Counted from the stretch's first letter, positions 16,857 through 64,000 are shown. The stretch is 64,000 nt of DNA from Candidatus Peregrinibacteria bacterium (GCA_016220165.1 JACRIE010000010.1:1-64000), one strand, 5' to 3'. Numbers and translations are program-made. The notes: a model not told the origin generated them from the letters alone.

Positions 16857-19800
16857 TTATTTTTTCCCCCTTAATTTCTTATAAGTCTTCCATAGATCCA
16901 ATAAGTTAAATCTTTGAGTTTTAAAGAATTCCTTCGCTCCTTTGATAAGTTCTTCAGGCGTCTTGAAGTCCGCGAGAGACGCGGGTTTCTTGGGCGGCTC
17001 GGGCGGCGGAGGCTCGGGCGGCGGCGGCGGGGTTGTCGGGGACGGAGTTCCTGAAGGAGGTTCGGGCTCGGGGGAAGGGATCCCGCCCGTGGGCTGGTCG
17101 CTGCCGCCGCCCCGGCTCGAGTGCTGCGTGCTGGCGGACGAGGTGGCCACCTCCAGGGCGGAGGACTGGCCCGTTCCCACCGTGTTCACGGCTTGGACGA
17201 TAAACCAGTAATTGGTTCCGGGATTCAGTCCTGTCACGGCCGTGCTGGTTGTATTGGCCGAAAGGGTGGCGGCCGTTGTATCGAACCCCGCTGTCGCGGA
17301 CGTGATGGAATACTTCACCACGAAATTATCCTCCGCGTCTCCTGCCGCGCCCGAATTGTCCGTCCAGCCGAGGGTGAATCCTATGGTGCTGACCGAAGAC
17401 GAGGCAAGATCGGAAGGAGCGGTGGGAGCCACTAATTCCACCTCATACGCGCCGATGTCATAATTTCCCACACGGGTTGTTCCCACAATATCGCTTGCCA
17501 GCGTGGACGCTATCGCAACTGGTACTCCCGTAGTTGTACCCGCGTTCATGGCTGGGGATGTGGCGCCGATAGTGTAGTCATAGGTGGCGGCATTGGTGAA
17601 TAACGGGTTACTGCTCAGGGAGTTGGCGTCATAACCCGTGGCTGTATTCCACCCGGCCAGCGTGGAATAGGAAGTGCCATCCACCGTGATGGTTCCGCCC
17701 ACCATCGCGATCGGAATGCTGTTCGCGGTATAAAGCAGATTATTGGTGAAATTCGACGCGGGCGTGCTTGTGAGCGAGCCGTAAAAACGCAATGGCGCTT
17801 TATAGCCGGCCGTGGTCTGGGCCACCAGATTATTTTTAACTGTCAGATTGGTGATAGAAGGAGTTCCGTCGCCCATACCGATGTCCAGAGCGACGATGCC
17901 CCCATTCTGATGATTGAGGATTGTGTTGTTCCAGATGGAAACAGTGCTCGAAATTCCTATAAATCCGATTCCGACGTCATACACTTCGCTTCCCTCATTG
18001 GACCAGATCACATTATTGAAAATAGACACGTCGTTTGAAGCTCTGATAAGAATGCCTCCTGTCCTGTTGCTGTAAATCCGGTTGTTGGAATAAACATGAT
18101 TCGTGCCCGCCGCGCCGGCGGACTGAATACTGAGATTTTCCGTAATACCTCCGGCATTGCTGTAAATAGTATTGTGATTGACGGTCAGATAGTCCGAATT
18201 GAAAACGTAAACCCCTGCGCCGGTTATACTGGCCGTGGCTCCGATCAGAGTCAGCCCTTCAATGGTCAGGTAGTCCGCCCCCGAAACCACAATGGCCGCG
18301 TCCGCACCCGAGGATCCCTGCCCGTTGGCATTGATCGTAGCGGTTTGACTTGGCCAGTTGGTGATCCAGGTATTCAGACTGGAATCGGTCCCCGTGCCCG
18401 AATGGGTACTGGAAAGGGTGAGAATACCGGTGAAAGTGCCTTTCAGGTATGCCCGCGAGCCGCCGGTCAGTTCCGTTTGCAGTTTGCTCAGGGTTTTATA
18501 GGGGGCGTCGCTCGTGCCGGTTCCCGTGGTGTCATTGCCGCTTGTGGCGTCGAAATATAAGGAAATATAAGCCGGAAGGCCGGACGTATTGATCGTCACC
18601 GCGTTCGACGTCAGGGATCCAAACGTCGCCGTGAGATTGGAAGATCCGGTGCTTTTGCCCCGCACGGTACCGCCGGAAGTGACCCCCGCGTACGTGGGAT
18701 TGCTGACAGCGAAAGAAGCGCTGGAAGTCAGATCCTGAGTTCCTCCGGTATTATAATTTCCGGTAGCGGTCAGGGTGGTTCGGGGAGTGGCAGTATCCAG
18801 CGCAGTCGTCCCCGAGGCCAGCGTGATGGAGGTCAGATCGCCCCCGGTCGTTTCATACGCGCCGAGGTCGACATTGGTCGTGATCGCTCCGGACACATAC
18901 GGGCGCGCGCCGTCGCTGTAATCCTGCGTCAGGGAATACGTGGCCAAATCATTCGTGCCAACGATGTTCGTCGTTCCGGCGCCGATGGCTGGAGAGGTGG
19001 ATTGCAGGGTAAAATCGTAGGTTGACGCGTTTGTGAACACGGGATCGCCGGAAAGCGAATGCGAGTCCTGTCCCCGGGCCGCCTGCCAGGCGGCGAATGA
19101 ACTATAAGCTGTGGAACCGATGGTCGAGAAAGTGGCGCCCGAAGCGCCCCTCATTAAATTGTAATCGGAAGTCAGGGTCACGGGATCGCCCAGCTCTGAA
19201 ATATTGATAACTCCGCCGCTTCCGGCTGAATTATCAACGATGTTATTTTTGAGATAGGCCGTGACCGTGCCGCTGCCGGTCGTCGGATCGCCGAAGAAGA
19301 GGGCAGTGGTGGAACTGCCCCCGGAAGCAACCAGCGTATTGTTGGCGATCACAATAGTGTTGACGCCTGTGCCTGTTGGGCTGACGGCAATTTTATAACT
19401 CGATCCTTGCCCCTGGATCACATTATTGACAACGGTGTTGAGATTTCCGTTAATGCCGATGATGTTGGTGCCCATGCCGGAAGTGTATGTTCCCGTAAAC
19501 TGATTGCTGTCGATCAGCACGTCTTGTCCGAATACATAAATTCCGCGGCCGTCAAAGCTATTATTCCGGATGATGGTGGTGGGAGTGGGCGCGGTGCCTC
19601 CGGCAGAAATAGCGTATGGATAAAATCCACCATTGGTTCGGGTGCTTACAAAATTATTATTCTGAATGATGGGACGGGGAGTGCCGCCGCTCAGCAATAT
19701 GCTGTAATTCGGTGTGCTGTTGGTGGAGGTAATCGTAAACCCCTGAATGATAGTGGCATTGGTTTGAGCGCCTGAAAGAGTAATAATACCTTGCGCGTCG

Positions 19801-49560: not shown

Positions 49561-49956
49561 ATGACATATAAAGCATATTACTATCTTAAGTCAAACGGAC
49601 GCGCGCCGCTGGCACAGTATGTAATCAACCTGAAAGATAAAAAGGCGGAAGAGGAAATTTTCGCCGCGATTTCATGGCTGATAGACGAAAAGTGTCAATT
49701 GCCTCCGCCTTACATAAAACACGTCTGGAAAAAGATTTATGAATTAAGATTAGAATGCAAAGGAAATCAATATCGCATTTTTTATTTCATTTATATCGAG
49801 GGCAAAATTATTTTATTGGATGCTTATACCAAAAAGACCAATAGAATTCCGAATCGTCTTCTTAAAAAAATACAAAATTACTATTTCGATTATTTAAATC
49901 ATCGCCATGAAAAAGAATTTAAAAAGAAAGAAATTGCCGGAGGATCCGAATATTGA
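49561..49956 (+). CDS. RelE/HigB-like (Gp49 family) toxin
   Basis: KIYELRLECKGNQYRIFYFIYIEGKIILLDAYTKKTNRIP. Confidence 0.85.
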   Translation: MTYKAYYYLKSNGRAPLAQYVINLKDKKAEEEIFAAISWLIDEKCQLPPPYIKHVWKKIYELRLECKGNQYRIFYFIYIEGKIILLDAYTKKTNRIPNRLLKKIQNYYFDYLNHRHEKEFKKKEIAGGSEY

Positions 49957-50212
49957 ATATTTGGAAAGGTTATGGGACGATCCAAAATTTATAAAAGGCT
50001 ACCAAAAGGCGCGCCTTCGTTTTGGAATTGCCATCGAGATCGCTCGTCTCCGACAGAAAAAGAAGATCACCCAGCACCAGCTCGCCTGTTTAACCAAAAC
50101 CGACCAGGCGGTCATTTCCAGAATCGAGAGAGGGCGAGCCAATCTATCTTTGGATAGGCTCGCCGAAATCGCAGCAGCGCTGGGTGTTAAAGCAAAAATT
50201 CAGTTGGTTTAG
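49907..50212 (+). CDS. XRE-family antitoxin (HigA-like)
   Basis: IARLRQKKKITQHQLACLTKTDQAVISRIERGRANLSLDRLAEIAAALG. Confidence 0.88.
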   Translation: MKKNLKRKKLPEDPNIEYLERLWDDPKFIKGYQKARLRFGIAIEIARLRQKKKITQHQLACLTKTDQAVISRIERGRANLSLDRLAEIAAALGVKAKIQLV

Positions 50213-50215
50213 CGG

Positions 50216-50980
50216 TCATTTTGCCACAAACGCCGTCGCTCCCAGCCAGGCTAAGTCGAAAACGGCTTTCATGCTTTGCGCGAATGTGGTGCTTTCGACC
50301 ATCAATCCGATCAGTTCTTCGCGATTGAGCGACATGACCGCCACTTTGTTACCGTAAATCGCGATCTCATTCTGGAACAGGAATTGCGCCTTATTCACCA
50401 TGAGGATCTCCAGAAGGTTCGGGTCGTACTGCTTTGGATAAAACGCGTCAATCAAGTCCACGCACTCATCCGTCGCGGTTGAGATATAACGTGTTTTAGT
50501 GCCTCGTTTCACTTTTTCGCGACAGTAGTGTCTGAAAAAATCAGGAAACAGCGATGTCACTTGCTGTAAATTCGTGTACGCCAGAATTTCATGTTCCGCG
50601 CTCAGCGTGTCCTCAAAAATCGTTTTGATTCCCTCCAATCCTTCATAGAAACGGATCTTCGGCTTGAAGGCGAGCGTGTTAGAAATCGAGAGCAGTTCCG
50701 GAATCAGATTTTTGGTCCGCTCCAGCCGCTCTTCAGCCATCTGGGTCAGCTTCTTGTCCAGCGCTTCCGCCGTGAAGTGGAGTAATTTCCCCTTCGTGTA
50801 TGAACTGACCAATCCCTTTTCGACCAAATTGCCCAGCGTGTGATAGCACGTGGCCCGATTCACATGCGCCCTGCGTGCGATCGCGCTCACAAACGATCCG
50901 CCGAGTTCCAGCACGGCCAGATACACCTTCGATTCCTCCGGCGTGAGGCCGAGTTCAGTCAATTGTTGATAGAGTTCCAT
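50216..50980 (-). CDS. TrmB-family transcriptional regulator
   Basis: LGLTPEESKVYLAVLELGGSFVSAIARRAHVNRATCYHTLGNLVEKGLV. Confidence 0.88.
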   Translation of the reverse strand: MELYQQLTELGLTPEESKVYLAVLELGGSFVSAIARRAHVNRATCYHTLGNLVEKGLVSSYTKGKLLHFTAEALDKKLTQMAEERLERTKNLIPELLSISNTLAFKPKIRFYEGLEGIKTIFEDTLSAEHEILAYTNLQQVTSLFPDFFRHYCREKVKRGTKTRYISTATDECVDLIDAFYPKQYDPNLLEILMVNKAQFLFQNEIAIYGNKVAVMSLNREELIGLMVESTTFAQSMKAVFDLAWLGATAFVAK

Positions 50981-51226: not shown

Positions 51227-52894
51227 ATGAGGAATTGCATCCGCTGTAAATCACCGTTCGAAATCACCCCGTCCGACCGGCAGTTTTACCAAAAAATTGC
51301 GCCGCGGTTCGGCGATAAGACGTTTCCGGTGCTTGATCCTGTCCAGTGTCCCACATGCCGCCAAAGGAATCGAACGGCGTATCGCAACTTCAGAAATTTA
51401 TACCATCGCAAGTGCGATTTGACCGGAAAATCGATCATTTCGATGTATGACACGGACGCCCCATTCCCGGTCTACGACTACGACGCGTGGCATGGCGATG
51501 GCTGGGACGCGATGACGTATGCGAAGGGCTACGATTCGAATCAGTCTTTTTTAGAGCAATACAAAGCCTTATCCGACGTGGTGCCGCGCTACAACGTCCA
51601 CAACATCCAATGCGACAACTGCCGTTATTCCAATTTCGCGTTCAGCTCAAAGGACTGTTATCTCATTTTTGGCTGCGTGATGAGCGAGCAGTGCTATTTT
51701 GGCCACATTGTCTGGGAATCGGAAGGATGTCTGGACTGTCTCTACGCCTATCGCTGTAAATACTGCTACGAGTGTGTGGACTGCGTGGAGAGCTACGAAC
51801 TGTTTTTCAGCCAGGAATGCGTGAATTGTGTTTCCAGTTATTTTTTGTACGACTGCCGCGATTGCGAAAATTGTTTCGGGTGCGTCGGACTTTTCAAAAA
51901 GAAATATTACATTTTTAATCAGCCTTTCTCGAAGGACGAGTATCTGGCCAAAATAGCGGAATTAAAATTTCTGTCCCGAGAAATCCAGGTTGTTGTATTG
52001 AAGCGGTTTGATGAGCTGAAGGCAAAGCATATTCATCGTCACTTCATCGGCTCTCAGAATGAGGATGTGAGCGGCGATCATATTTATTTTTCGAAAAATG
52101 TTCATCACTCCTTTGACGCCAAGCAGTGTGAAGACAGCCGCTTCCTTTACACGGCGAAAACGACCAAAGATTCCTACGACATCTCCTTCACAGGCGCTCC
52201 GGCGGAACTGTGCTACAACTCCCTGACGATGTTCAGCGCGCAAAACGTCATCGCGAATCAGTCAACGCCCAACTGCAGCAACGCTTATTATTCCGAATTT
52301 TGTTACAACAGTCAGTATATTTTTGGCTGCAATGGTCTGAAGTATAAAAAATATTGCATTCTCAATAAGCAGTATTCAAAAGAAGCGTATGAACGCCTTG
52401 TGCCGCAGATCATCGAAGGCATGATCAGAGACAGAACATGGGGTAACTTTTTTCCGATGGCTCATAGTCCCTTCGCCTACAACGAAGCCGTGGTTCAGGA
52501 ATACCAGCCGCTCACCAAAGAACGGTGTGTGGCAAACGGATGGCGATGGAAAGAGGATGTCTCCAATAAATCCTACAAAGGACCGGTGTACGAAATCCCC
52601 GAAAACAGCAAAGATGCGCAGGACGATATTGTCGATCATATCCTGACGTGTGAAACGGGCGGTAAGCCGTACAAGCTCATTCCCCAGGAGCTTCAATTCT
52701 ATCGCAAATACAATCTCCCCATCCCTCGCCTGCATTCCGACGAACGCCATCGCCGGCGCATGGCCATGCGCAACCCGCGCGAGCTCCACGCTCGCACCTG
52801 CGTCAAGTGCCAAGCCCCGATCAGGACAACGTACGCGCCCGAACGGCTGGAGATTATATATTGTGAAGCGTGTTACCTTAAAGAAGTCTACTAA
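51227..52894 (+). CDS. Cys-rich zinc-ribbon / solenoid family protein, paralog 1
   Basis: MRNCIRCKSPFEITPSDRQFYQKIAPRFG...CYLKEVY; start refined from ORF 51173. Confidence 0.85.
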   Translation: MRNCIRCKSPFEITPSDRQFYQKIAPRFGDKTFPVLDPVQCPTCRQRNRTAYRNFRNLYHRKCDLTGKSIISMYDTDAPFPVYDYDAWHGDGWDAMTYAKGYDSNQSFLEQYKALSDVVPRYNVHNIQCDNCRYSNFAFSSKDCYLIFGCVMSEQCYFGHIVWESEGCLDCLYAYRCKYCYECVDCVESYELFFSQECVNCVSSYFLYDCRDCENCFGCVGLFKKKYYIFNQPFSKDEYLAKIAELKFLSREIQVVVLKRFDELKAKHIHRHFIGSQNEDVSGDHIYFSKNVHHSFDAKQCEDSRFLYTAKTTKDSYDISFTGAPAELCYNSLTMFSAQNVIANQSTPNCSNAYYSEFCYNSQYIFGCNGLKYKKYCILNKQYSKEAYERLVPQIIEGMIRDRTWGNFFPMAHSPFAYNEAVVQEYQPLTKERCVANGWRWKEDVSNKSYKGPVYEIPENSKDAQDDIVDHILTCETGGKPYKLIPQELQFYRKYNLPIPRLHSDERHRRRMAMRNPRELHARTCVKCQAPIRTTYAPERLEIIYCEACYLKEVY

Positions 52895-52986
52895 TCAGTC
52901 CGTAGTCCGTAGCAATGTAGTTCGTAGTAAAATTTAAATTAACTACTAACTACTAACTACTAACTACGGACTACTAACTACGGACT
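52895..52986. repeat. GTCCGTAGT / ACTACTAACT word hairpin leader
   Basis: TCAGTCCGTAGTCCGTAG...ACTACTAACTACTAACTACGGACTACTAACTACGGACT. Confidence 0.85.
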
Positions 52987-54609
52987 ATGCAGTGTATCCA
53001 GTGCAAATCACCCTTCGAAATAACCTCCGCCGACTGGGCGTTTTATCAAAAAATGTCCGTGCCGGATCCGAAATTATGTCCCGATTGCCGTCAGCAGCGA
53101 CGGCTGAGCTTTCGCAACGAGCGGAGCCTCTATCATCTCAAGTCCCACCTGAGCGGCAAACAGATGATCTCGATGTATTCGCCGGATAAGCCCTACAAAG
53201 TGTACGACCAGTCCGAATGGTGGGGCGATCAGTGGGATGGGCTCACGTACGGACGCGACTTCGATTTCAATCGGCCTTTTTTCGAGCAATTCCACGAATT
53301 AATGCTGGAGGTTCCGCGCATCAACTTAATCAATCGGGAGCACGAGAACAGCGAATACTGCAACTTCGCGATCAAAAACAAAAATTCCTACCTTCTATTC
53401 ACTTCGGCGGAATGCGAGGACTCCTATTACTGCAACCGCTCATGGAAACTCAAAGATGTGTGCGATGCTTCGAACGCGAACGAATGCGAATTATCTTATG
53501 AGATCATCGACTCAGACCATTGCTATCACTGCGCTTGGCTCCAGAATGCCTCCAATTGCTCCGATTGTTTTTTGGGATACAACCTCAAAGGATGTCATCA
53601 TTGCTTCGGATGCTATGGATTAACAAACGCTTCGTATCGCGTAGGCAATAAACAGCTCACGAAGCAGGCCTACGAGGAGCTACTGCCGTCCCTGTGGAAA
53701 GATTTCAAAAAAGTTCAGAAGAATTATCAGCAGCATCTTCAGAAGCTTCCCCGAAAATACATCGACGGAATTAATGTCGAGGATTGCACCGGAAACGCGC
53801 TGTTTCACTCCAAAAACTGCAAAAACTGTTTCGAACTGATGAATGGGCAGGATTGCCGGTATGTCGCGAATGTCACCTACATGAAAGATTCGTACGATAT
53901 CAACAACGACGACAACTCCGAATTGGTTTACGAAGCGGTCGGCAGTGAGTCGAACTACTTTCATCGCTTCAACGACATTTGCTGGTTCAACACCAACATC
54001 ACGTATTGCAGTCTGTGTTTCAGTTCTCACGATCTTTTCGGCTGCGTCGGATTGCGCCATAAAGAGTACTGCATTTTAAACAAACAATATTCTAAGGAAG
54101 AATATGAACAAATCGTGGGCCAAATCGTTGGCCATATGGTGGCCACGAAGGAGTGGGGCGAATTTTTTCCATCCACCATTTCACCCTTCGCGTACAACGA
54201 GACCATGGCGGTCGAGCACTTCCCGCTCAAAAAAGAGGAAGTCCTCAGACGTGGCTTGGCATGGAAGGATGACGATGGGAAAAAGAGCTACAAAGGGCCA
54301 CAGGTTGATGTTCCTCGAAAAATCGAAGACGTCACGGACGACATCGTGAACCAGATCCTTCTTTGCGAAGTGACGGGAAAGCCTTACAAAATCACGCCCC
54401 AGGAGCTCCGCCTCTATCGCAAATTAGATATTCCCGTCCCGCGCCGCTGTCCGGATCAGCGCCACCAAGATCGCCTTGCTCTCCGCAACCCACGAAAATT
54501 GTACGCCCGCACCTGCGTCAAGTGCTCCGCGCCCATTCAAACGACGTATGCGCTCAATCGCCCCGAGATCGTGTACTGTGAAACGTGTTATCTCAAGGAA
54601 ATTTATTAA
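52987..54609 (+). CDS. Cys-rich zinc-ribbon / solenoid family protein, paralog 2
   Basis: MQCIQCKSPFEITSADWAFYQK...YCETCYLKEIY. Confidence 0.88.
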   Translation: MQCIQCKSPFEITSADWAFYQKMSVPDPKLCPDCRQQRRLSFRNERSLYHLKSHLSGKQMISMYSPDKPYKVYDQSEWWGDQWDGLTYGRDFDFNRPFFEQFHELMLEVPRINLINREHENSEYCNFAIKNKNSYLLFTSAECEDSYYCNRSWKLKDVCDASNANECELSYEIIDSDHCYHCAWLQNASNCSDCFLGYNLKGCHHCFGCYGLTNASYRVGNKQLTKQAYEELLPSLWKDFKKVQKNYQQHLQKLPRKYIDGINVEDCTGNALFHSKNCKNCFELMNGQDCRYVANVTYMKDSYDINNDDNSELVYEAVGSESNYFHRFNDICWFNTNITYCSLCFSSHDLFGCVGLRHKEYCILNKQYSKEEYEQIVGQIVGHMVATKEWGEFFPSTISPFAYNETMAVEHFPLKKEEVLRRGLAWKDDDGKKSYKGPQVDVPRKIEDVTDDIVNQILLCEVTGKPYKITPQELRLYRKLDIPVPRRCPDQRHQDRLALRNPRKLYARTCVKCSAPIQTTYALNRPEIVYCETCYLKEIY

Positions 54610-54644
54610 TTTGGCATGTCGTTTCTGGGGGCCTTCCCCCATTC

Positions 54645-54710
54645 TGTCATTCCCTCACCTCTTAATGTCATTCCCTCACCTCTTAATGTCATTCCCGCGG
54701 AGGCGGGAAT
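54645..54710. repeat. 21-nt tandem repeat followed by dRS3-like inverted repeat
   Basis: TGTCATTCCCTCACCTCTTAA x2 then TGTCATTCCCGCGGAGGCGGGAAT. Confidence 0.85.
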
Positions 54711-55194
54711 CTACCCCAATCTCCGATTCGACCGCACTTCTTCGGAATCCACCCAACGTTAATTTATACGTTATTCCCTCCTTCCACTGAGGGTTGTTCC
54801 ATTGTTGAAATCCGAATTTTGCGCAGAGCTTTTGCATGGGGACATTCTCAAAAGCAGTCTCAGTCACGACGCCTTTCGCGCCTTTCTTTTTGGCGTGGTC
54901 GATGCACCGCTTCATGAGTTCCTGGCCCAAACCGAGTTTTTGAAAATTCGGATCAACGAGGATCTCCCGGATGAAGAAATAATTATTTTCCCACCAGTCT
55001 CTATCCACCGAGCAAAAGGCCGTGAATTCGCCGTTATTTTTCGCGAGAATGTATAAACTATCCTTTAGCGCGAAGCGTTTTTTCAGCAATTCAATCGTGG
55101 TCTGATCGAAGGTGTAATTGAAAGACGTTTTATCGCGCAAAATCTCGATTGCTTCTGCCTTTTTGATGGTTGAATAACGAATGTTCATATCCAT
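54676..55194 (-). CDS. GNAT family N-acetyltransferase
   Basis: FFIREILVDPNFQKLGLGQELMKRCIDHAKKKGAKGVVTET. Confidence 0.88.
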   Translation of the reverse strand: MDMNIRYSTIKKAEAIEILRDKTSFNYTFDQTTIELLKKRFALKDSLYILAKNNGEFTAFCSVDRDWWENNYFFIREILVDPNFQKLGLGQELMKRCIDHAKKKGAKGVVTETAFENVPMQKLCAKFGFQQWNNPQWKEGITYKLTLGGFRRSAVESEIGVDSRLRGNDIKR

Positions 55195-55297
55195 TTTTTT
55201 GTCAATTTATGATACCAAATTTTGGGGATAAACCTAAATTGTAAAGAATAAAAACAATTATTTTGACAAATATTCTGACATTTGGTAGCATGGGTGC

Positions 55298-56155
55298 ATG
55301 AAACATCTTCAGAAATTTCGTCATCAATGTGGCTATTCTCAGGCCTATATGGCCAAAGAGCTAGGCGTCTCACGCCCCACGTATATCCAGATCGAAAAGG
55401 GCGAGCGCGAGCTCACGGTTTCCGAAGCCCAAAAGTTGGCCGCGCTATTCGACATGACGTTGGAAGAGTTCCTCAGCGGCGCGATAAAGAAGGAAGCGAA
55501 CGTGAAGTTCAATAAGTCCGAAAAGGGCTCGTTGCGCATCCAGGTGCCGGCCGATAAAATCCAAAAATTCAAAGAAATCCTGCTCTACATCCTCGCGAAA
55601 ATCGGCGCGCGTCCGAACATCGGGGAAACCGTTTTATACAAACTGCTCTATTTCATCGATTTCGATTATTACGAAAAGTACGGCAAGAAGCTGATCGGCG
55701 CGACCTACATCAAAAACCATTACGGCCCTACGCCCGTTGAGTTCAAGAAGATCACGGAGCAGATGGAGAAGGAAAAATCGTTGGAAAAAATTAAAAGCCG
55801 TTATTTTCAGTACCAACAGAGGAAATATCTGCCCCTAAAGGACTCCGACTTATCCATACTGACGGCGCAGGAAAAGGAATTCATCGATAAAACGCTCGAG
55901 CGATTGGCGGACAAAAATGCCAGACAGTTGAGCGACTATTCCCATGGCGATCACCCTTGGCAGGCAACTCCGGAGGGCCAGATCATTGACTACAACCGCG
56001 TATGGGACCGTCAGTCGCCTTACGCCGAGCGCGACCACTTAGGCTCATGGCTCGATGCCGGGGCCATGGACACGCATAAAAACCTTCCCCCGCTCACCAG
56101 AGAAGAATATCAGTATTATATGTCTTTACCCGAAGAAAAAGATGAAACAAGGTGA
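55298..56155 (+). CDS. XRE-HTH plus Panacea (DUF4065) antitoxin-like protein
   Basis: HTH MAKELGVSRPTYIQIEKGERELTVSEAQKLA; Panacea-like ETVLYKLLYFIDFDYYEKYGKKLIGATYIKNHYGPTP. Confidence 0.85.
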   Translation: MKHLQKFRHQCGYSQAYMAKELGVSRPTYIQIEKGERELTVSEAQKLAALFDMTLEEFLSGAIKKEANVKFNKSEKGSLRIQVPADKIQKFKEILLYILAKIGARPNIGETVLYKLLYFIDFDYYEKYGKKLIGATYIKNHYGPTPVEFKKITEQMEKEKSLEKIKSRYFQYQQRKYLPLKDSDLSILTAQEKEFIDKTLERLADKNARQLSDYSHGDHPWQATPEGQIIDYNRVWDRQSPYAERDHLGSWLDAGAMDTHKNLPPLTREEYQYYMSLPEEKDETR

Positions 56156-56477
56156 TATTTATTTGGTGAATTGGAGTCCGAGCGTAGGGCATGAATTTCA
56201 GAAGGTCAGACCGGCGATTGTTTTATCGGGCGACGCTATTCTAAAACGATCCAATCTGATTGCGTTCGTAGCAATAAGCAGTCAAAAGGCAAAGCATTTT
56301 GTCGATGATATTTTTATTGCGAAAGATTCTGAAAATAATCTTTTTGAGGATTCAGTCATAAAAATGCATCACATCAGTTCATTTGATTATAACCGCGTGA
56401 TTAAAAAAGTCGGTCGAATCAGTGAGCCATTACTGGCAGAAATAAAGATAAAAATCAGGGAACATTTTAATCTATGA
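56142..56477 (+). CDS. PemK/MazF-family toxin
   Basis: MKQGDIYLVNWSPSVGHEFQKVRPAIVLSGDAIL; overlaps the Panacea gene. Confidence 0.85.
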   Translation: MKQGDIYLVNWSPSVGHEFQKVRPAIVLSGDAILKRSNLIAFVAISSQKAKHFVDDIFIAKDSENNLFEDSVIKMHHISSFDYNRVIKKVGRISEPLLAEIKIKIREHFNL

Positions 56478-56759
56478 ACATTTCTTTTCCCACAGCGTCT
56501 CAAACAAATTCAGCTGAATTTGATAAATTTCCGGGCTCTCGATGAGAAGCCCGAAGTCTTCTTTTTCGGAAGAAATAAAAGAAACTCGGCCGTCGTACAG
56601 ATACATCGTCGCGGGGAAGCTCATGGCCGCGGGCAGGTAGCGGAGTTCACGCACGTCTTTCGGCTTGCTCGGCCATCGCTCCTTGATGTCTTTCGCCTTG
56701 TTGCGCATGACGCGGAGCGAGATGCTGGACTGGATGAGTCTGTTTACAATTGCCAGCAA
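56472..56759 (-). pseudogene. Remnant of a TrmB-family regulator (C-terminal part only)
   Basis: RELRYLPAAMSFPATMYLYDGRVSFISSEKEDFGLLIESPEIYQIQLNLFETLW resembles TrmB C-termini; HTH missing. Confidence 0.55.
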
Positions 56760-56793
56760 TAATCTAACATAATAGGCCTATAATCGCTTTCGT

Positions 56794-58440
56794 ATGACCA
56801 CCTGCCAAGAATGTTCCAAAGGATTCGAAACACCGGACGTCGCCAAGAAAATCTTCGCGAAAATCAACGCGCCATTGCCAACACTCTGCCCCGACTGCCG
56901 ACAGCGGCAGCGATGCGCGTGGCGCAACGAGCGCTCGCTCTACAAGCGCACATGCGACCTGACGGGCCGCGAGACCGTCTCATTCTATCCCGCGAATTCG
57001 CCTTACAAAGTATACAGCAAAGACGCTTGGTGGTCGGACGACTGGGATCCTCTGGAGTACGGCCGTGAGTGCGATTTCAACCGGCCCTTTTTCGATCAGT
57101 TCGGCGAGCTTCTCATGGCCGTCCCGCACATGGCCCTCATTGTCTCCCATGGCGAAAACAACGACTATTGCCCCTATTCCGTCTATTACAAGGATTCCTA
57201 TATGTGCGTTTCCGGCGTGGTCGGCGAAAATATTTATTACAGCTATTGGACGAACGACTCGCGCGATTGCATGGACTGTAACGCCTGTTTTCGTTGCGAA
57301 CGATGTTACGAATGCATGCACTGCGACACGCTTTACAGCTCCATTTTTTGCAGGGATTGTCGGAACGGAAACGATTTGAGCTTCTGCGCGAACTGCGACG
57401 GTTGCAAAAACTGCATCGGCTGTTATGGTCTCCGCAATCAGGAGTATCAGATTTTTAACAAACCGGTTTCCAAAGAAGCGTTCAAAAAATTCAGCGAAGA
57501 ACTCCGCTCCGGCGCCCCGCGACTCGAGGCAATGAAAGAAGAGTTCGCCAACTATCTATTAAAGTTTCCGCAACAGGCGCTCCAAAATATTAATTGCGAA
57601 AACTGCACAGGCGATTACCTCAGAAGCTGCCGCAACGCGCTGGAGTGTTATATGGCGGAAAACCTCGAAGATTGCGCGTACGCCTGGAATATCCCGCAGG
57701 GCGCGAAAGACGCCTGTGACATCAATTACACGCCCAAAGGCGAGCTCATCTATAACGCCATGAGCGGCACCAACAGCTCAAGGTCTATGGCGCTGGTGCA
57801 TGGCTGGGATTTATCCGAGAGTTTTTATTGCTTCGAGTGTTTTTACGGCAACGATCTCTTCGGTTGCGTTGGTTTGAAGCACAAAAAATACTGTATTCTC
57901 AATAAGCAGTATTCAAAAGAGGATTACTTTAACCTTAAATCTTTAATCATTAATCATATGGGGAAGACTGGCGAGTGGGGGCAATTTTTCCCTATCGCGC
58001 TGTCGCCGTTCGCGTACAACGAGACCATCGCGCAGGAATATTTCCCGCTGACGAAAGAACAAGCCGTTCAAAAAGGCTGGCGCTGGAAGGATCCGGAAAT
58101 AGCTCATTTGGACGTCAAAAAAATCATCCCCGCGGCCAAGCTCCCGGACAACGTCAGCGGCATTCCGGACGACATCCTCAACTGGGCCATTCAGTGCGAA
58201 GTCACCCATCGCCCCTTCCGCATCGTGGCGCAGGAGCTCAAGTTTTACCGGGACATGGGTCTGCCCATTCCACACCTCCATCCGGACGAGCGCTACCGCA
58301 GGCGCAAGGCGCTCGAAAACTCGCGGCGCCTCTACGCTCGGACGTGCGCCAAGTGTCAGGCGCCGATCGAAACAACGTACCAGCCCGAAAGGCTGGAGAT
58401 CGTGTATTGCGAGGCCTGCTACTTGAAAGAGGTCTACTAA
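56794..58440 (+). CDS. Cys-rich zinc-ribbon / solenoid family protein, paralog 3
   Basis: MTTCQECSKGFETPDVAKKIFAKINAP...YCEACYLKEVY. Confidence 0.88.
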   Translation: MTTCQECSKGFETPDVAKKIFAKINAPLPTLCPDCRQRQRCAWRNERSLYKRTCDLTGRETVSFYPANSPYKVYSKDAWWSDDWDPLEYGRECDFNRPFFDQFGELLMAVPHMALIVSHGENNDYCPYSVYYKDSYMCVSGVVGENIYYSYWTNDSRDCMDCNACFRCERCYECMHCDTLYSSIFCRDCRNGNDLSFCANCDGCKNCIGCYGLRNQEYQIFNKPVSKEAFKKFSEELRSGAPRLEAMKEEFANYLLKFPQQALQNINCENCTGDYLRSCRNALECYMAENLEDCAYAWNIPQGAKDACDINYTPKGELIYNAMSGTNSSRSMALVHGWDLSESFYCFECFYGNDLFGCVGLKHKKYCILNKQYSKEDYFNLKSLIINHMGKTGEWGQFFPIALSPFAYNETIAQEYFPLTKEQAVQKGWRWKDPEIAHLDVKKIIPAAKLPDNVSGIPDDILNWAIQCEVTHRPFRIVAQELKFYRDMGLPIPHLHPDERYRRRKALENSRRLYARTCAKCQAPIETTYQPERLEIVYCEACYLKEVY

Positions 58441-58464
58441 AATATTTATTCAATGAAGGTAGGA

Positions 58465-58634
58465 GAGGGAAACTCACCCCGTTTACAATCTGGGCAACTT
58501 CCCCTCTCTACTCAGAGAGAGGGCCTGAATAGAGAGAGTAGCCTCGAAGCCTGTTCTGACTTAAAAACTTTTGCCCTTCTCTGGGCAGAGAGGGACAAAA
58601 GTTTTCCTCTTCACGAATGGGGTGAGTTTCCCTC
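58465..58634. mobile_element. Terminal-inverted-repeat hairpin element, copy 4
   Basis: GAGGGAAACTCACCCCGTTTAC ... GAATGGGGTGAGTTTCCCTC with internal hairpins. Confidence 0.75.
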
Positions 58635-58917
58635 TACGGCGTAGCCGTTTTTTCAAAAAAGCTGAGAGTAGGTCTATTGCCGACTAGAATGTCCCGCAAA
58701 AATATTAATTAGATAATATTTTTTTAAGAGATGCTATCTAAAATGGTGTTAAATTTTTCAACAGATTATTTTTTGGTCCGAAAAAAACAGCGGAACAAAA
58801 TAACGCGTTCGGGTCTGTCATTTTTTGCAACAGCCGAAAGCACGCTTTTTTTCCGTCTTGAATATTCAATCGGAGGGTGACCATAGTAGCTCGTAATCAT
58901 TTTTTAATTCCCTCCTT

Positions 58918-60123
58918 ATGATCAATGCCGGAGACACCGCCTTTGTCCTTATCTCGGCCGCATTGGTTGCCGTCATGACGCCGGGGCTCGCCTTTTTCTA
59001 TGGCGGTCTCGTCAAACGGAAGAATGTCCTCACCATCATGATGCAGAGCTTTATCTCGATGGGCGTCGTGACCGTCTTGTGGGCGCTGTTCACTTTTTCA
59101 CTCGCCTTCGGCGACGACTTCCACGGTCTGATTGGTAATTTTAAATACGCGTTCATGCATGGCGTGGGGCTGGACTCGGTCGCGAGTTACGGTCCGCACA
59201 TCCCGTTTTTGGCGTTCTTCGTCTTTCAGATGATGTTCGCCATCATCACGCCCGCCTTGATCACGGGCGCGTTCGCCGACCGGATGAATTTCAAAAGCTA
59301 CCTCCTCTTTTTGGTTTTTTGGAGCGTACTGATTTACGCGCCTTTGGCGCATTGGGTGTGGGGCGGCGGACTCATCGCCAGCTTGGGCGCGCTTGATTTC
59401 GCCGGCGGAACGGTCGTCCATATCAGCGCCGGCATGGCGGCGCTCGCGTCGGTTTTTGTTTTGGGGAAGCGCAAACATACGGCTCATTTGCCGCACAACA
59501 TTCCGTACGTGGCGCTCGGCACGGCGTTGCTCTGGTTCGGATGGTACGGGTTCAACGCGGGGAGCGCTCTCGGGGCGACGCCTCAGGCCGCAGCCGCGTT
59601 CGCCAACACGGACATCGCCGCCTCCGTGGCCATGGTGACATGGCTGGCGCTTTCGTGGCTCGTCGACAAGCGCCCGAGCATGGTAGGCTCGCTCACTGGC
59701 GTCTTGGCGGGACTAGTAGCCATCACGCCCGCCGCAGGATACGTTCAGCCGTGGGCTTCCTTGGTTATCGGCATCCTCGCGTCGGTCGTTTGTTTTTACG
59801 CCATCAAGTTTCGCATGAAAATGGGGTGGGACGACGCGCTCGACGTGTGGGGGTGTCATGGCGTCGGCGGGATCGTCGGGTCGATTCTGACCGGCGTGTT
59901 CGCGTCTAAGGCCATTGGCGGCGTGTCCGGCTGGATCGAGGGAAATCCGGGTCAATTCCTGGCGAATCTGGAGGGTACCCTGATTTCCATCGTGTTCGCG
60001 TTCACGGCCACCTTTCTGCTTTTGAAAATCCTCAAACAGTTCATGACGTTCGAGATTGTGACCAAAGAAGAAACCGAAGGCTTGGATCGCGCGCTTCATG
60101 GCGAGGAGGCCTATGATTTTTGA
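58918..60123 (+). CDS. amtB: Ammonium transporter (Amt/MEP family)
   Basis: MTPGLAFFYGGLVKRKNVLTIMMQSF; GGTVVHISAGMAALASVFVLGKR; DVWGCHGVGGIVGSILTGVFA. Confidence 0.96.
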   Translation: MINAGDTAFVLISAALVAVMTPGLAFFYGGLVKRKNVLTIMMQSFISMGVVTVLWALFTFSLAFGDDFHGLIGNFKYAFMHGVGLDSVASYGPHIPFLAFFVFQMMFAIITPALITGAFADRMNFKSYLLFLVFWSVLIYAPLAHWVWGGGLIASLGALDFAGGTVVHISAGMAALASVFVLGKRKHTAHLPHNIPYVALGTALLWFGWYGFNAGSALGATPQAAAAFANTDIAASVAMVTWLALSWLVDKRPSMVGSLTGVLAGLVAITPAAGYVQPWASLVIGILASVVCFYAIKFRMKMGWDDALDVWGCHGVGGIVGSILTGVFASKAIGGVSGWIEGNPGQFLANLEGTLISIVFAFTATFLLLKILKQFMTFEIVTKEETEGLDRALHGEEAYDF

Positions 60124-60188
60124 GTGCATGCATGGCGAGACTCTGCTATACTGATCTTCAAGTCCCTCCGCGCTCAATCCTTTGTTTC

Positions 60189-61823
60189 ATGCCCCCTTGT
60201 ATTGTCTGCAAAACACCGTTCGAAGTCCGCGACCTCGACCGCGCGTTCTACACTAAAATAGAGGTTCCTGAGCCGAAATTCTGTCCCGACTGTCGTTTTC
60301 AGCAGAGGCTCTGCTTTCGTAATGAGCGCACGCTCTACAAACGCAAAAGCAGTTTGTCGGGCACGGACATGATTTCGATTTATTCGCCCGAAAACCGCTA
60401 CAAAGTCTTCACGCCGCAGGAGTGGTGGGGCGATCAGTGGGACGGCATGAACTACGGCCGCGAGTTCGATTTCAACCGGCCGTTTTTCGATCAATTCCAG
60501 GAGTTGTTGCTCGACGTGCCGCGCATCGGCCTCTTCAACGTGAACCCCACGAACAGCGATTACTGCCAGCAGGCGTACAACTGTAAAAACTGTTATCTGT
60601 GTATCGCGGTCAAAAACTGCGAAGATTCCATGTACATCTCGCACTCAAATCGGATCAAAAGTTCTTTTGACTGCAGCCACACGCAAAACATGGAGCTGTG
60701 TTACGACTGTGTCGACAGCGACAATCTCTATGACTGCGTCCATTGCCAAAGTTGCCAAAATTCCAGCGGTCTTAGGTTCTGCTACGACTGCATCGGCTGT
60801 CACGATTGCTTCGGATCCTGGGGGCTGCGCAACAAGCGAAACTACATTTTCAACAAGCCCTACAGCCCAGAGGAATACAAACAAAAAATCGCGTCGCTGG
60901 AACTCTTTAAATACAGCAATTTCGTTAAATACAAGAACTATTTTCAGGACGTTTCCAAAAAAGCGATCCATCGCGCAGACCGCAATCTTAACACATTCGA
61001 TTCCCTTGGGAATTACCTGATCAACACGCAAAATTGTCATCGTTGTTTCGACGGTTTTGAGCTTCAGGACTGCGCGTACTCCACCTGGATTTTTGAAAGC
61101 CGCGATTGTCACGACGTCTACGGCATGGGCGAAAGCGAGCTGATCTATCAAGGCCTCGGTGTCGAGGAGGTAAATCATTGCGCGTTCAATACCTTTGTTT
61201 CCAACTCAAGCGATGTGGATTGCAGCGATCTCTGTTTTTATTCCATGAATCTTTTTGGATGCGCGAGTTTGAAGAACAAGAAGCACTGCATTTTCAACAA
61301 GCAATATTCAAAAGAAGATTACTTTAACCTTAAACCTTTAATCATTAATCATATGGGGAAGACTGGCGAGTGGGGGCGATTCTTCCCAGTCTCTCTTTCG
61401 CCCTTCGCCTACAACGAAACCGTGGCCAATAAATTCTTTCCGCTCGAAAAAGATCAGGCCCTTCAAAAGGGTTATCGCTGGCGTGACCTCGATCGAAAAG
61501 AATTCGGCGCGGCCGAAACTACTATTCCGGATAGCATTAAGGACGTGAAAGACGACATCGTGAACGCCACGCTCTCGTGCGAAACAACAAAGCGCAAATA
61601 CAAAGTGACGCTCCAGGAACTCAAATTTTACCGCGATCATGGCATCCCGATTCCGCGTCATTGTCCCGATCAGCGCTACGTCGAGCAAATGTCGCTCCGC
61701 AACCCGCGCACACTCTATGACCGAAATTGCGCCAAGTGCTCCGCCCCGCTCAAAACCACCTACGCGCCCGAACGACCGGAAATCGTTTACTGCGAGAAGT
61801 GCTACCTTAAAGAAGTCTATTAG
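60189..61823 (+). CDS. Cys-rich zinc-ribbon / solenoid family protein, paralog 4
   Basis: MPPCIVCKTPFEVRDLDRAFYTK...YCEKCYLKEVY; start refined from ORF 60120. Confidence 0.87.
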   Translation: MPPCIVCKTPFEVRDLDRAFYTKIEVPEPKFCPDCRFQQRLCFRNERTLYKRKSSLSGTDMISIYSPENRYKVFTPQEWWGDQWDGMNYGREFDFNRPFFDQFQELLLDVPRIGLFNVNPTNSDYCQQAYNCKNCYLCIAVKNCEDSMYISHSNRIKSSFDCSHTQNMELCYDCVDSDNLYDCVHCQSCQNSSGLRFCYDCIGCHDCFGSWGLRNKRNYIFNKPYSPEEYKQKIASLELFKYSNFVKYKNYFQDVSKKAIHRADRNLNTFDSLGNYLINTQNCHRCFDGFELQDCAYSTWIFESRDCHDVYGMGESELIYQGLGVEEVNHCAFNTFVSNSSDVDCSDLCFYSMNLFGCASLKNKKHCIFNKQYSKEDYFNLKPLIINHMGKTGEWGRFFPVSLSPFAYNETVANKFFPLEKDQALQKGYRWRDLDRKEFGAAETTIPDSIKDVKDDIVNATLSCETTKRKYKVTLQELKFYRDHGIPIPRHCPDQRYVEQMSLRNPRTLYDRNCAKCSAPLKTTYAPERPEIVYCEKCYLKEVY

Positions 61824-61852
61824 ACCCTCTTGTTGTCTTATTTCCTCTCTTT

Positions 61853-61996
61853 TTGTCATCCTGAACTTGTCCATAATGGACCACTTTGGGGTTTCAGGAT
61901 CTGACCCACGTTCTGCCATTTGCGATTCTTAAAAAATGCGATTAAATTGAAAATTTGAGTAGATCCTGACCCCGAAAGCCTTCGGGGCAGGATGAC
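61853..61996. repeat. Dispersed TTGTCATCCTGAA repeat, copy 2, in leader of paralog 5
   Basis: TTGTCATCCTGAACTTGTCCATAATGGACCACTTTGGGGTTTCAGGAT and terminal GGGGCAGGATGACAT. Confidence 0.75.
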
Positions 61997-61998
61997 AT

Positions 61999-63597
61999 AT
62001 GAAAAATTGCGCCCAATGTTCATCACCATTCGAGAATACCGACGCGGACCGTCAATTTTGCAAAGAGCTGGATGTGCCGGAACCCACGCAGTGCTGGACC
62101 TGTCGTCAGCAGCAGCGATTGGCGTTTCGCAATGAGCGCAATCTGTATCACCGCACGTGCGATTCAACGGGCAAGCGTATTGTGAGCATGTATTCCGCGG
62201 ACAAACCGTTAGTCGTTTATGACAGGGAGGCGTGGTGGAGCGATTACTGGAGCGGTACTGATTACGCGCGTGACTTCGATTTCAACCGTCCGTTTTTCGA
62301 ACAATTCGCTGAACTCCAAAAGGTTGTCCCGCGCGTGGGCATCGTCAACGTGGCGACGGTAAATAGCGATTATATCAATTACGCGGGCTATTCAAAAAAT
62401 TCCTATCTTATTTTCGGTTCCGTCCAGGCGGAAGATTGTTTTTACGGGTCGCCCTATTATTCCAAAGATTGCGTGGACGTGGAGCGCCTGACGCATAGTG
62501 AACTGTGTTATAAATGCATCGACTCCAAAAACCTCTACAATGGCATTTATCTTCAGGATTCTTCCGGTTGCAGCGGCTGCGTCTTTGGGTTCGATTTACA
62601 CGGTTGTCACGATTGTTTCGGCTGCGTGGGGTTGCGTCAAAAGGAGTATTACATTTTTAATAAGTCCTATTCTGCAGGAGACTATCACGTCCTGGTCAAA
62701 CAATTTCATCTGAACGACCGTCAGCATTTTGACGCGGCCAAAAAGCGGTTTGATGAGTTAGTGCTCAAAAGTCCCCGCATAAGCGCAATCATTCTAAAAT
62801 CGGAGGATTGCGTAGGACACCATATTTATGAATCCCATAATTGTTATTATGGCTTCTATTTGGAACGATGCGATGATTGCCGTTACGTCAATTGGCTCAT
62901 GGACTCCAAAAAGTGCCTGGATTACGAGTACGGCGAAGAACTTCAATGGTGCGCCTACAGCGTCGGCGGCTATCGCCTCAACAACGTTAAATTTTCCATG
63001 GCCAATGTGGAGTCTCACGACCTGCTCTACTCGGATCAGTGTTTTTCGTGCCACGATTGTTTCGGTTGCATTGGATTGCGTCATAAACAATATTGCATTT
63101 TCAATAAACCCTATTCCAAAGAGAATTACTTTAACCTTAAATCTTTAATCATTAATCATATGGGGAAGACAGGGGAGTGGGGCCAATTTTTTCCTATTAA
63201 ATATTCTCCGTACGCCTACAACGAAACCATGGCGCACGAAGAGTATTACCCGCTTACCAGGGAAGAGGTTCTCAAGCGTGACTGGAAGTGGCGCGATGCC
63301 GAGCCTGAGAAACCAATCGAAAACGTCATTTTTGACCCCAGCATCCACGAATGTCAAAAGTGCAGGCATCATTTTCGACTCATTCCCGCCGAAGTCGTTT
63401 TTTATAAAAAAATGGGCATCACTGAGCCCGTCAAATGCCCCTTGTGCCGCTATCATAAACGCATAAAACTTCGCAATCCGCGTCGGTTATTCACGCGCCC
63501 GTGCGCGAAATGTTCGGTTCCAATGCAAACCACCTATTTTCCCGATCGTCCCGAGATCATTTATTGCGAGAAGTGCTACCTTAAGGAAGTCTACTAA
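61999..63597 (+). CDS. Cys-rich zinc-ribbon / solenoid family protein, paralog 5
   Basis: MKNCAQCSSPFENTDADRQFCKELDVPEP...YCEKCYLKEVY. Confidence 0.88.
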   Translation: MKNCAQCSSPFENTDADRQFCKELDVPEPTQCWTCRQQQRLAFRNERNLYHRTCDSTGKRIVSMYSADKPLVVYDREAWWSDYWSGTDYARDFDFNRPFFEQFAELQKVVPRVGIVNVATVNSDYINYAGYSKNSYLIFGSVQAEDCFYGSPYYSKDCVDVERLTHSELCYKCIDSKNLYNGIYLQDSSGCSGCVFGFDLHGCHDCFGCVGLRQKEYYIFNKSYSAGDYHVLVKQFHLNDRQHFDAAKKRFDELVLKSPRISAIILKSEDCVGHHIYESHNCYYGFYLERCDDCRYVNWLMDSKKCLDYEYGEELQWCAYSVGGYRLNNVKFSMANVESHDLLYSDQCFSCHDCFGCIGLRHKQYCIFNKPYSKENYFNLKSLIINHMGKTGEWGQFFPIKYSPYAYNETMAHEEYYPLTREEVLKRDWKWRDAEPEKPIENVIFDPSIHECQKCRHHFRLIPAEVVFYKKMGITEPVKCPLCRYHKRIKLRNPRRLFTRPCAKCSVPMQTTYFPDRPEIIYCEKCYLKEVY

Positions 63598-63681
63598 TCA
63601 GTCCGTAGTCCGTAGAATGTAGTTCGTAGTAAAATTCAAATTAACTACTAACTACTACCTACGGACTACTACCTACGGACT
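63598..63681. repeat. GTCCGTAGT / ACTACTAACT word hairpin leader, second copy
   Basis: Near-identical to 52895-52986. Confidence 0.85.
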
Positions 63682-64000
63682 ATGCAGTGTATCCAGTGTA
63701 AAACACCATTCGAAATCTCTCAGCGCGAAATCGATTTTTGCAAAAAAATCGACATGTCTTTGCCGACGCTCTGTCCGCAGGACCGCTGGCGGGAACTCAT
63801 GGCTTCGCGTAATGAATGGAAACTCTATCGCCGCAAGTGTGACGCCACAGGAAAAGAAATTTTGAGCGCGTACGCCCCAGATTCGCCCTTCAAGGTCTAT
63901 AACAATCCCGTGTGGTGGGGCGGAACGTGGGACGCGGTCGAATACGGACGCGACTTCGATTTCAGTCGGCCATTCTTCGGGCAATTCGCCGAACTTCAAA
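63682..64000 (+). CDS. Cys-rich zinc-ribbon / solenoid family protein, paralog 6, truncated by window edge
   Basis: MQCIQCKTPFEISQREIDFCKKIDMSLPTLC. Confidence 0.85.
   Translation, partial: MQCIQCKTPFEISQREIDFCKKIDMSLPTLCPQDRWRELMASRNEWKLYRRKCDATGKEILSAYAPDSPFKVYNNPVWWGGTWDAVEYGRDFDFSRPFFGQFAELQ

Follow-up and report, generated by a model that had tools for sequence, protein, structure and literature searches.

A Patescibacterial family of finger-capped cysteine-solenoid proteins and its probable partner, a soluble VirD4-like ATPase

Introduction

Why would a bacterium with a genome of 1.22 Mb keep a whole set of large cysteine-rich proteins that carry no informative name? The question is raised by a stretch of 64,000 nucleotides from Candidatus Peregrinibacteria (GCA_016220165.1, JACRIE010000010.1:1-64000; below, the window), the last part of which encodes six paralogous members of a cysteine-rich protein family that we named CR. 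The source genome is 98% complete and Patescibacterial, nearest to Peribacteria judging by its best relatives. Patescibacteria have the lowest annotation coverage among phyla, and their mode of host exploitation is an open question (PMC12102498). The analyses reported here indicate that CR proteins very probably work as a functional unit together with a soluble ATPase related to VirD4.

CR proteins form a family encoded in same-strand arrays

The six genes lie on the plus strand: CR paralogue 1, the array's first gene (51227..52894, 555 aa), paralogue 2 (52987..54609, 540 aa), paralogue 3 (56794..58440, 548 aa), paralogue 4 (60189..61823, 544 aa), paralogue 5 (61999..63597, 532 aa) and paralogue 6, of which the window contains the first 106 aa (63682..64000) and which ends at about 65319 on the contig. 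Their mutual identity is 40-49%. Both the six same-strand paralogous reading frames and the shared motifs CxxCxxPFE, CPDCRQ-RNER-LY, YKVY..WWGD.WD, FGC.GL..K.Y.I.NK.YSKE and YCE.CYLKE(V/I)Y, described in the original prediction, were found, and the array does continue beyond the window as it had proposed: copy 6 is completed there and two broken copies follow, after which the contig stops at 69030. Two short contigs of the source genome, C7 and C22, likewise terminate close to CR genes.

A profile of the six proteins returned 25 matches on five contigs of the source genome, with E values down to 1e-288, and 375 stretches of GTDB genomes encode relatives, so that the family stands far beyond chance. 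The best 80 of these 375, representing 76 loci, were analysed; as far as titles tell they are Patescibacterial, mostly Peribacteria, Peregrinibacteria and Gracilibacteria with some Liptonbacteria, Jorgensenbacteria and Harrisonbacteria. Neighbouring CR genes share the same strand in 137 of 138 pairs. An assembly artefact is an unlikely source of the array, because the paralogues are at most 49% identical within the genome and similar arrays occur in dozens of independent assemblies.

Strong CR matches occur in 81 of the 154 genomes of the source genome's class. Across 197 genomes of the phylum, full-length members were nearly restricted to that class, and outside it mostly the C-terminal double finger was found, as a small protein. 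Copy number ranges from 0 to about 34 per genome, the highest figure coming from a genome of 0.9 Mb, and presence is patchy even inside genera; protein length is uniform (524-612 aa, about 556 aa). Searches of Pfam, NCBIfam, PHROGs, PADLOC and PDB sequences gave no CR match above cut-off, returning sub-threshold fingers and one weak phage lobe; no relatives were found in viral contigs or plasmids, and phages gave one marginal match. The family is thus of the Candidate Phyla Radiation type without informative names that had been anticipated. In one TGA-recoded genome, about 50 kb consist of CR genes (G310, C4:48680-99621), full-length members being interspersed with shorter ones from which the fingers at both ends are missing, and an ATPase gene lies close to one end.

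CR arrays are linked to a dedicated ATPase

Clustering of the genes neighbouring the 76 loci yielded two strongly recurrent families, TrmB regulators (35 loci) and an ATPase (22 loci); ORF6N was the other recurrent neighbour (8 loci). The original prediction, which was right on the solenoid, the family and the array and wrong on active expansion (see below), had missed this ATPase because its gene lies outside the window. A CR gene lies within 1.5 kb of the ATPase gene in 18 of 21 loci, mostly directly adjacent and on the same strand, and the adjacencies in the best-80 loci comprise 14 with the order CR-to-ATPase and 5 with ATPase-to-CR, never in opposed orientation.

The association extends to whole genomes. 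In a set of 41 related genomes, nearly all those with CR encode a member of the ATPase subfamily, delimited by roughly 50% or more identity along its length, and none of the 15 without CR does. Among the 154 genomes of the class, 65 encode both CR and the ATPase, 72 neither, 16 CR only and 1 the ATPase only (Fisher p 8e-27, uncorrected for kinship). Ten of the 16 CR-only genomes were followed further (all except G245, G262, G290, G295, G306 and G336), and in 6 of the 16, most of them from TGA-recoded lineages, a divergent soluble ATPase is encoded in or near the CR array.

Forty of 41 CR-linked ATPases fall in a single clade with a support of 100. The exception, from locus L043, belongs to a second clade of soluble ATPases with a fused CxxC-x17-CxxC finger; a close relative, 88% identical, is encoded directly after the CR genes of the Paceibacterial locus L039, and Paceibacteria (L039, L043) apparently hold a second, independent CR-ATPase pairing. 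CR arrays and ATPase could in principle merely hitch-hike on a common genomic island without any joint function, since the genomes are related and joint inheritance alone inflates co-occurrence. We consider this very improbable, as the two are present or absent jointly within genera (g3: G002 versus G004 and G009; g10: G012 versus G015), a second ATPase clade is paired with CR in Paceibacteria, and the pairing is retained in TGA-recoded lineages. Our literature search found no description of it.

We also examined whether the ATPase-adjacent CR genes form one orthologous clade. This was ruled out, as they are scattered over the CR tree; therefore it is the ATPase-adjacent position that is conserved and not the paralogue. 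A split-protein reading, in which the finger was transferred from the ATPase to CR, was weakened by the finger that the CR-linked ATPase of Paceibacteria has of its own. Finger-fused relatives of the soluble ATPase also occur in CR-free Patescibacteria (PF23477, E 5e-14); six loci (L152, L153, L154, L155, L043 and L174), most without CR arrays, encode a soluble VirD4-like ATPase whose C-terminus bears a CxxC-x17-CxxC finger.

The ATPase resembles a coupling protein without membrane helix

The CR-linked ATPase matches PF10412, PF02534 and PF01935 above cut-off and has the Walker-type motifs GKSGSGKS and YVDEFQNF of a VirD4/TrwB nucleotide-binding domain. Its AlphaFold2 model (pLDDT 85) was matched by Foldseek to VirB4/TrwK, TrwB (TM-score 0.63 on target), HerA, DotL and Cag-beta. 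By hydropathy, which is a crude membrane predictor, no N-terminal membrane helix was found in the CR-linked ATPases of loci L119-L139 except L133, whose single hydrophobic stretch may lie upstream of the true start, and such a helix was predicted in nearly all paralogues of the CR-linked enzyme. The last 20 residues are acidic and disordered in the model, and most members end in F-[EA]-E-P-[LI]-[ILV], a FEEPLI-type terminus.

The P-loop core and the acidic disordered C-terminal tail are shared with type IV coupling proteins (T4CPs; VirD4/TrwB/TraG, tails in DotL and TraD) and VirB4. In contrast to typical T4CPs, the CR-linked ATPase lacks the N-terminal membrane helix, is encoded in CR arrays, was not seen with type IV secretion system (T4SS) or relaxase genes, and forms its own clade with the FEEPLI-type terminus. 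T4CPs without a transmembrane domain are a recognised subfamily, for instance TraJ of pIP501, and the acidic C-terminal tails of DotL and TraD receive substrates (PMC7434980). In Patescibacteria, VirD4 homologues encoded far from virB4 number in the thousands (PMC12102498), and the pairing offers a candidate role for some VirD4 homologues located away from T4SS genes.

CR proteins combine conserved fingered ends with a variable cysteine-solenoid

An AlphaFold2 model of CR paralogue 3, built with 110 family members, reached a pLDDT of 90.1 and a pTM of 0.90. It begins with a treble clef (about residues 1-49) and a conserved segment (50-120), followed by lobe 1 with two helices (121-226) and lobe 2 with one helix (259-374). 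Past a conserved loop region come another treble clef (465-509) and a half-LIM-like finger (510-548). The last two elements correspond to the C-terminal treble clef and CxxC-x17-CxxC finger that terminates in YCExCYLKEVY. The putative metal sites, judged on sequence alone, comprise C4, C7, C32 and C35 in the N-terminal finger, 95-100% conserved, and C518, C521, C539 and C542, invariant (100%) in the 110 members.

Conservation peaks at the C-terminal finger and is lowest in the lobes and linker helices. The YCExCYLKEVY-type end of CR is thus a conserved C-terminal element on otherwise diverse proteins, as is expected of T4SS substrates that bear a C-terminal signal for the coupling protein. The fingers show the four-cysteine ligand spacing of zf_Tbcl and zf_Tbcl_2, to which the CR proteins of the window score 16-22 bits, below the gathering cut-offs of 24-27. 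Stand-alone proteins with a Tbcl and a CxxC-x17-CxxC finger (PF13451, PF23477, TIGR04272; L158) carry both of the fingers found in the last 80 residues of CR, although they measure about 100-137 aa and have neither solenoid nor array.

In lobe 1, cysteine autocorrelation at lag 12 is 3.8 times the expected value and a single phase modulo 3 accounts for 95.5% of the cysteines, compared with 46% in shuffled sequences, which is the pattern expected of interior positions in a 12-residue coil. At least lobe 1 is therefore a beta-solenoid of 12-residue coils whose every third, inward residue is cysteine; the phase is weaker in lobe 2 (68% versus 48%). The solenoid suspected from the cysteine-rich rungs is thus supported by both model and periodicity. 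A motif resembling FGCxGLxxKxYxIxNKxYSKE closes both lobes, and hence an internal duplication within the core is suggested by the sequences.

The period and the single phase also suggest that the cysteines are mainly structural. With a median of 38 per protein, they could alternatively hold zinc, iron or redox equivalents, CR then being a metal or thiol store. We regard such a store as very unlikely: it is disfavoured by the cysteine phase of lobe 1, by stand-alone solenoid relatives with few cysteines (L156 and L157), and by a dedicated ATPase and a diversified surface that would be superfluous for a store. L156 and L157, from other Patescibacteria, are relatives of a single CR lobe with 233-263 aa.

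Foldseek found no match of the CR model in the PDB below E 5 and nothing convincing among viral models, and a PDB profile search retrieved LIM half-fingers only (E 0.002); on the basis of the model, the CR fold appears unlike any solved structure. The phage protein PHROG_15341 is weakly similar to one solenoid lobe (E 2e-7), the match being restricted to that lobe, with no fingers or arrays seen. A 12-residue beta-helix, TCTxSxNCxxAx, with every-third inward cysteines as in lobe 1, occurs in beetle hyperactive antifreeze proteins (PMC8038014), whereas CR is far larger and finger-capped, has no TCT ice-binding motif in its coil consensus and lacks a signal peptide, the likeness being one of fold analogy and not of kinship. 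Cysteine-rich extracellular proteins with clustered genes are known from Ca. Peribacter riflensis, in the same lineage, but average 1,655 aa and mostly bear signal peptides, in contrast to CR with its approximately 556 aa (PMC4736985). Known families account for the motor and the fingers, and no described counterpart was found for the solenoid protein, its array or its pairing with the ATPase.

As the original prediction had noted, signal peptides are lacking: none of 227 full-length CR members has a signal, membrane or other hydrophobic segment. This, together with the soluble ATPase and with a uniform length unlike that of adhesins, whose repeat number varies, would suit a cytosolic structural or receptor scaffold, such as a polymer or compartment, assembled or remodelled by the ATPase without intercellular transport. 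For a structural protein, 10-34 members at about 40% identity would be needlessly many in a genome of 0.9-1.5 Mb, and we hold this alternative to be live, though rather unlikely.

The CR array is an old, diversified repertoire

Within genomes, CR paralogues are 40-49% identical with few exceptions (nearest paralogue about 45%), and the closest relatives from other genomes are up to 69% identical for the source genome and up to 82% for G160. Genomes are intermixed in a tree of 227 members, and only two near-identical tracts, both short, were found among 253 CR genes. The active expansion proposed earlier, and likewise family-wide gene conversion, are ruled out by this ancient divergence and by the scarcity of near-identical tracts; the nearest CR relatives usually reside in other genomes. 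Because the paralogues are divergent, the genomes intermixed and conversion tracts scarce, the sequences indicate that the array is an old, diversified repertoire.

The recent process in the source genome is decay, since about 7 of its approximately 19 CR copies are broken and about 12 are intact. Three broken copies have in common a 22-nt double dyad, TCACGAAGTGATCCCTTTGGGA (L102:16578-16599 and 18314-18335; C7:11494-11515), which separates an N-terminal part of each from an open reading frame of about 165 aa at the C-terminal end. It stands at the identical codon inside 60-130 nt of near-identical DNA, showing that local exchange has taken place there. Elsewhere in the source genome (contigs C9, C3, C1, C26, C38 and C61) the dyad is mostly intergenic and carries up to two mismatches, mostly one.

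Possible function of the CR-ATPase pair

Since a single ATPase goes with numerous proteins whose ends are identical and whose cores vary, we tentatively favour the view that one soluble, coupling-protein-like ATPase is dedicated to the CR proteins, a repertoire of cytoplasmic clients. That it recognises these clients by the ends they share can reasonably be inferred from this layout. With their fingered ends the CR proteins would bind the ATPase that they have in common; its acidic tail is a plausible site, the C-terminal treble clef of CR being basic (about +5). The variable solenoid would bind member-specific partners. The ATPase might then act as a coupling protein without membrane domain does, passing CR or its cargo on to the type IV machinery of Patescibacteria and so serving exchange with host or neighbouring cells. 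Many members would in that case stand for many targets or partners, switched by TrmB. Delivery to other cells, proposed by analogy, is the least certain of these steps.

Several points weigh against this proposal. We infer the binding, transport and location of CR from sequences, models and analogies; the ATPase, having no membrane helix, may reside in the cytosol alone, and a gene for a membrane adaptor was not found. Zinc fingers are uncommon in exported proteins. As to the pairing itself, the p value overstates independence because the genomes are related, no linked ATPase was found in the CR-positive genomes G010, G040, G326 and G327 when these were tested, and G289, a genome in 230 contigs, encodes the ATPase but no CR. 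Moreover, in the source genome the ATPase gene is on a different contig from the window, where it neighbours a CR copy interrupted by an in-frame stop (C1:13281-14921).

The resemblance to HerA suggests a different role, in nucleic-acid handling or defence, in which a soluble HerA/VirD4-like ATPase would translocate DNA or RNA in the cytoplasm and CR proteins would be interchangeable recognition or adaptor subunits directed at foreign DNA or imported host DNA. The ATPase gives weak scores against mad8 and HerA from defence libraries and against CedD, of archaeal DNA import, the terminal fingers of CR are basic (+2.6 and +5.2), CR presence is patchy with toxin-antitoxin genes between array members, and the Patescibacterial T4SS has been proposed to import host DNA or other macromolecules (PMC12102498). 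On the other hand, the solenoid lobes are acidic, CR has no match among the PADLOC anti-phage families, and the arrays of the 76 loci have TrmB, the ATPase and ORF6N as their recurring neighbours but no nuclease, methylase or other effector. This alternative is also live, and we judge it possible but on the unlikely side.

Returning to CR proteins as clients of the ATPase, the pair may, and we say so with reserve, constitute an undescribed Patescibacterial machine, in which a soluble VirD4/VirB4-derived ATPase handles about 1-35 finger-capped cysteine-solenoids via their common ends. If so, each cell would have at its disposal a set of agents, specific to different partners, through which it interacts with host or neighbours, built on a solenoid fold absent from the PDB. 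CR arrays take several percent of the DNA in some genomes of 0.9-1.5 Mb, an investment that streamlined cells would hardly retain without strong selection. Given a library of CR proteins and an ATPase, each with a short conserved tail, the question of host exploitation becomes testable with two purified proteins.

Regulatory elements and neighbouring genes

In the window, a TrmB-family regulator (50216..50980, minus strand; PF01978, E 9e-13) is divergent from CR paralogue 1, which it adjoins. Twenty-six divergent TrmB-CR pairs were counted over the loci, and four of the eight TrmB genes of the source genome adjoin CR genes.

Three CR start codons are overlapped by a leader of about 90 nt, an inverted repeat of CTACTAA/CTACGGA units. 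One copy overlaps the start codon of CR paralogue 2 (52896..52989, plus strand; fold z -5.6), a second precedes paralogue 6 (63600..63684, plus strand) and the third lies outside the window (contig C65:65379-65408). Allowing up to 3 mismatches, its 30-nt core occurs in the source genome only before three CR genes of the window's contig. Rfam gave no match in the window between 49000 and 64000. The leader may act as a translation control element, because its RNA is predicted to fold far better than shuffled sequences (z about -5 to -6).

The TrmB, amtB, GNAT and toxin-antitoxin genes reported among the array genes were all identified, namely TrmB (PF01978), Xre/SocA with PemK-MazF, GNAT and AmtB. 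A Gp49/HigB-like toxin and an Xre antitoxin lie directly upstream of TrmB (49561-50212), and RelE-like and ORF6N genes recur close to the CR arrays of other genomes. A further locus, G000 C26:72993-79966, contains two frameshifted CR copies, two TrmB genes and one ORF6N gene, and a membrane-anchored VirD4 paralogue is encoded a few kb from this frameshifted pair.

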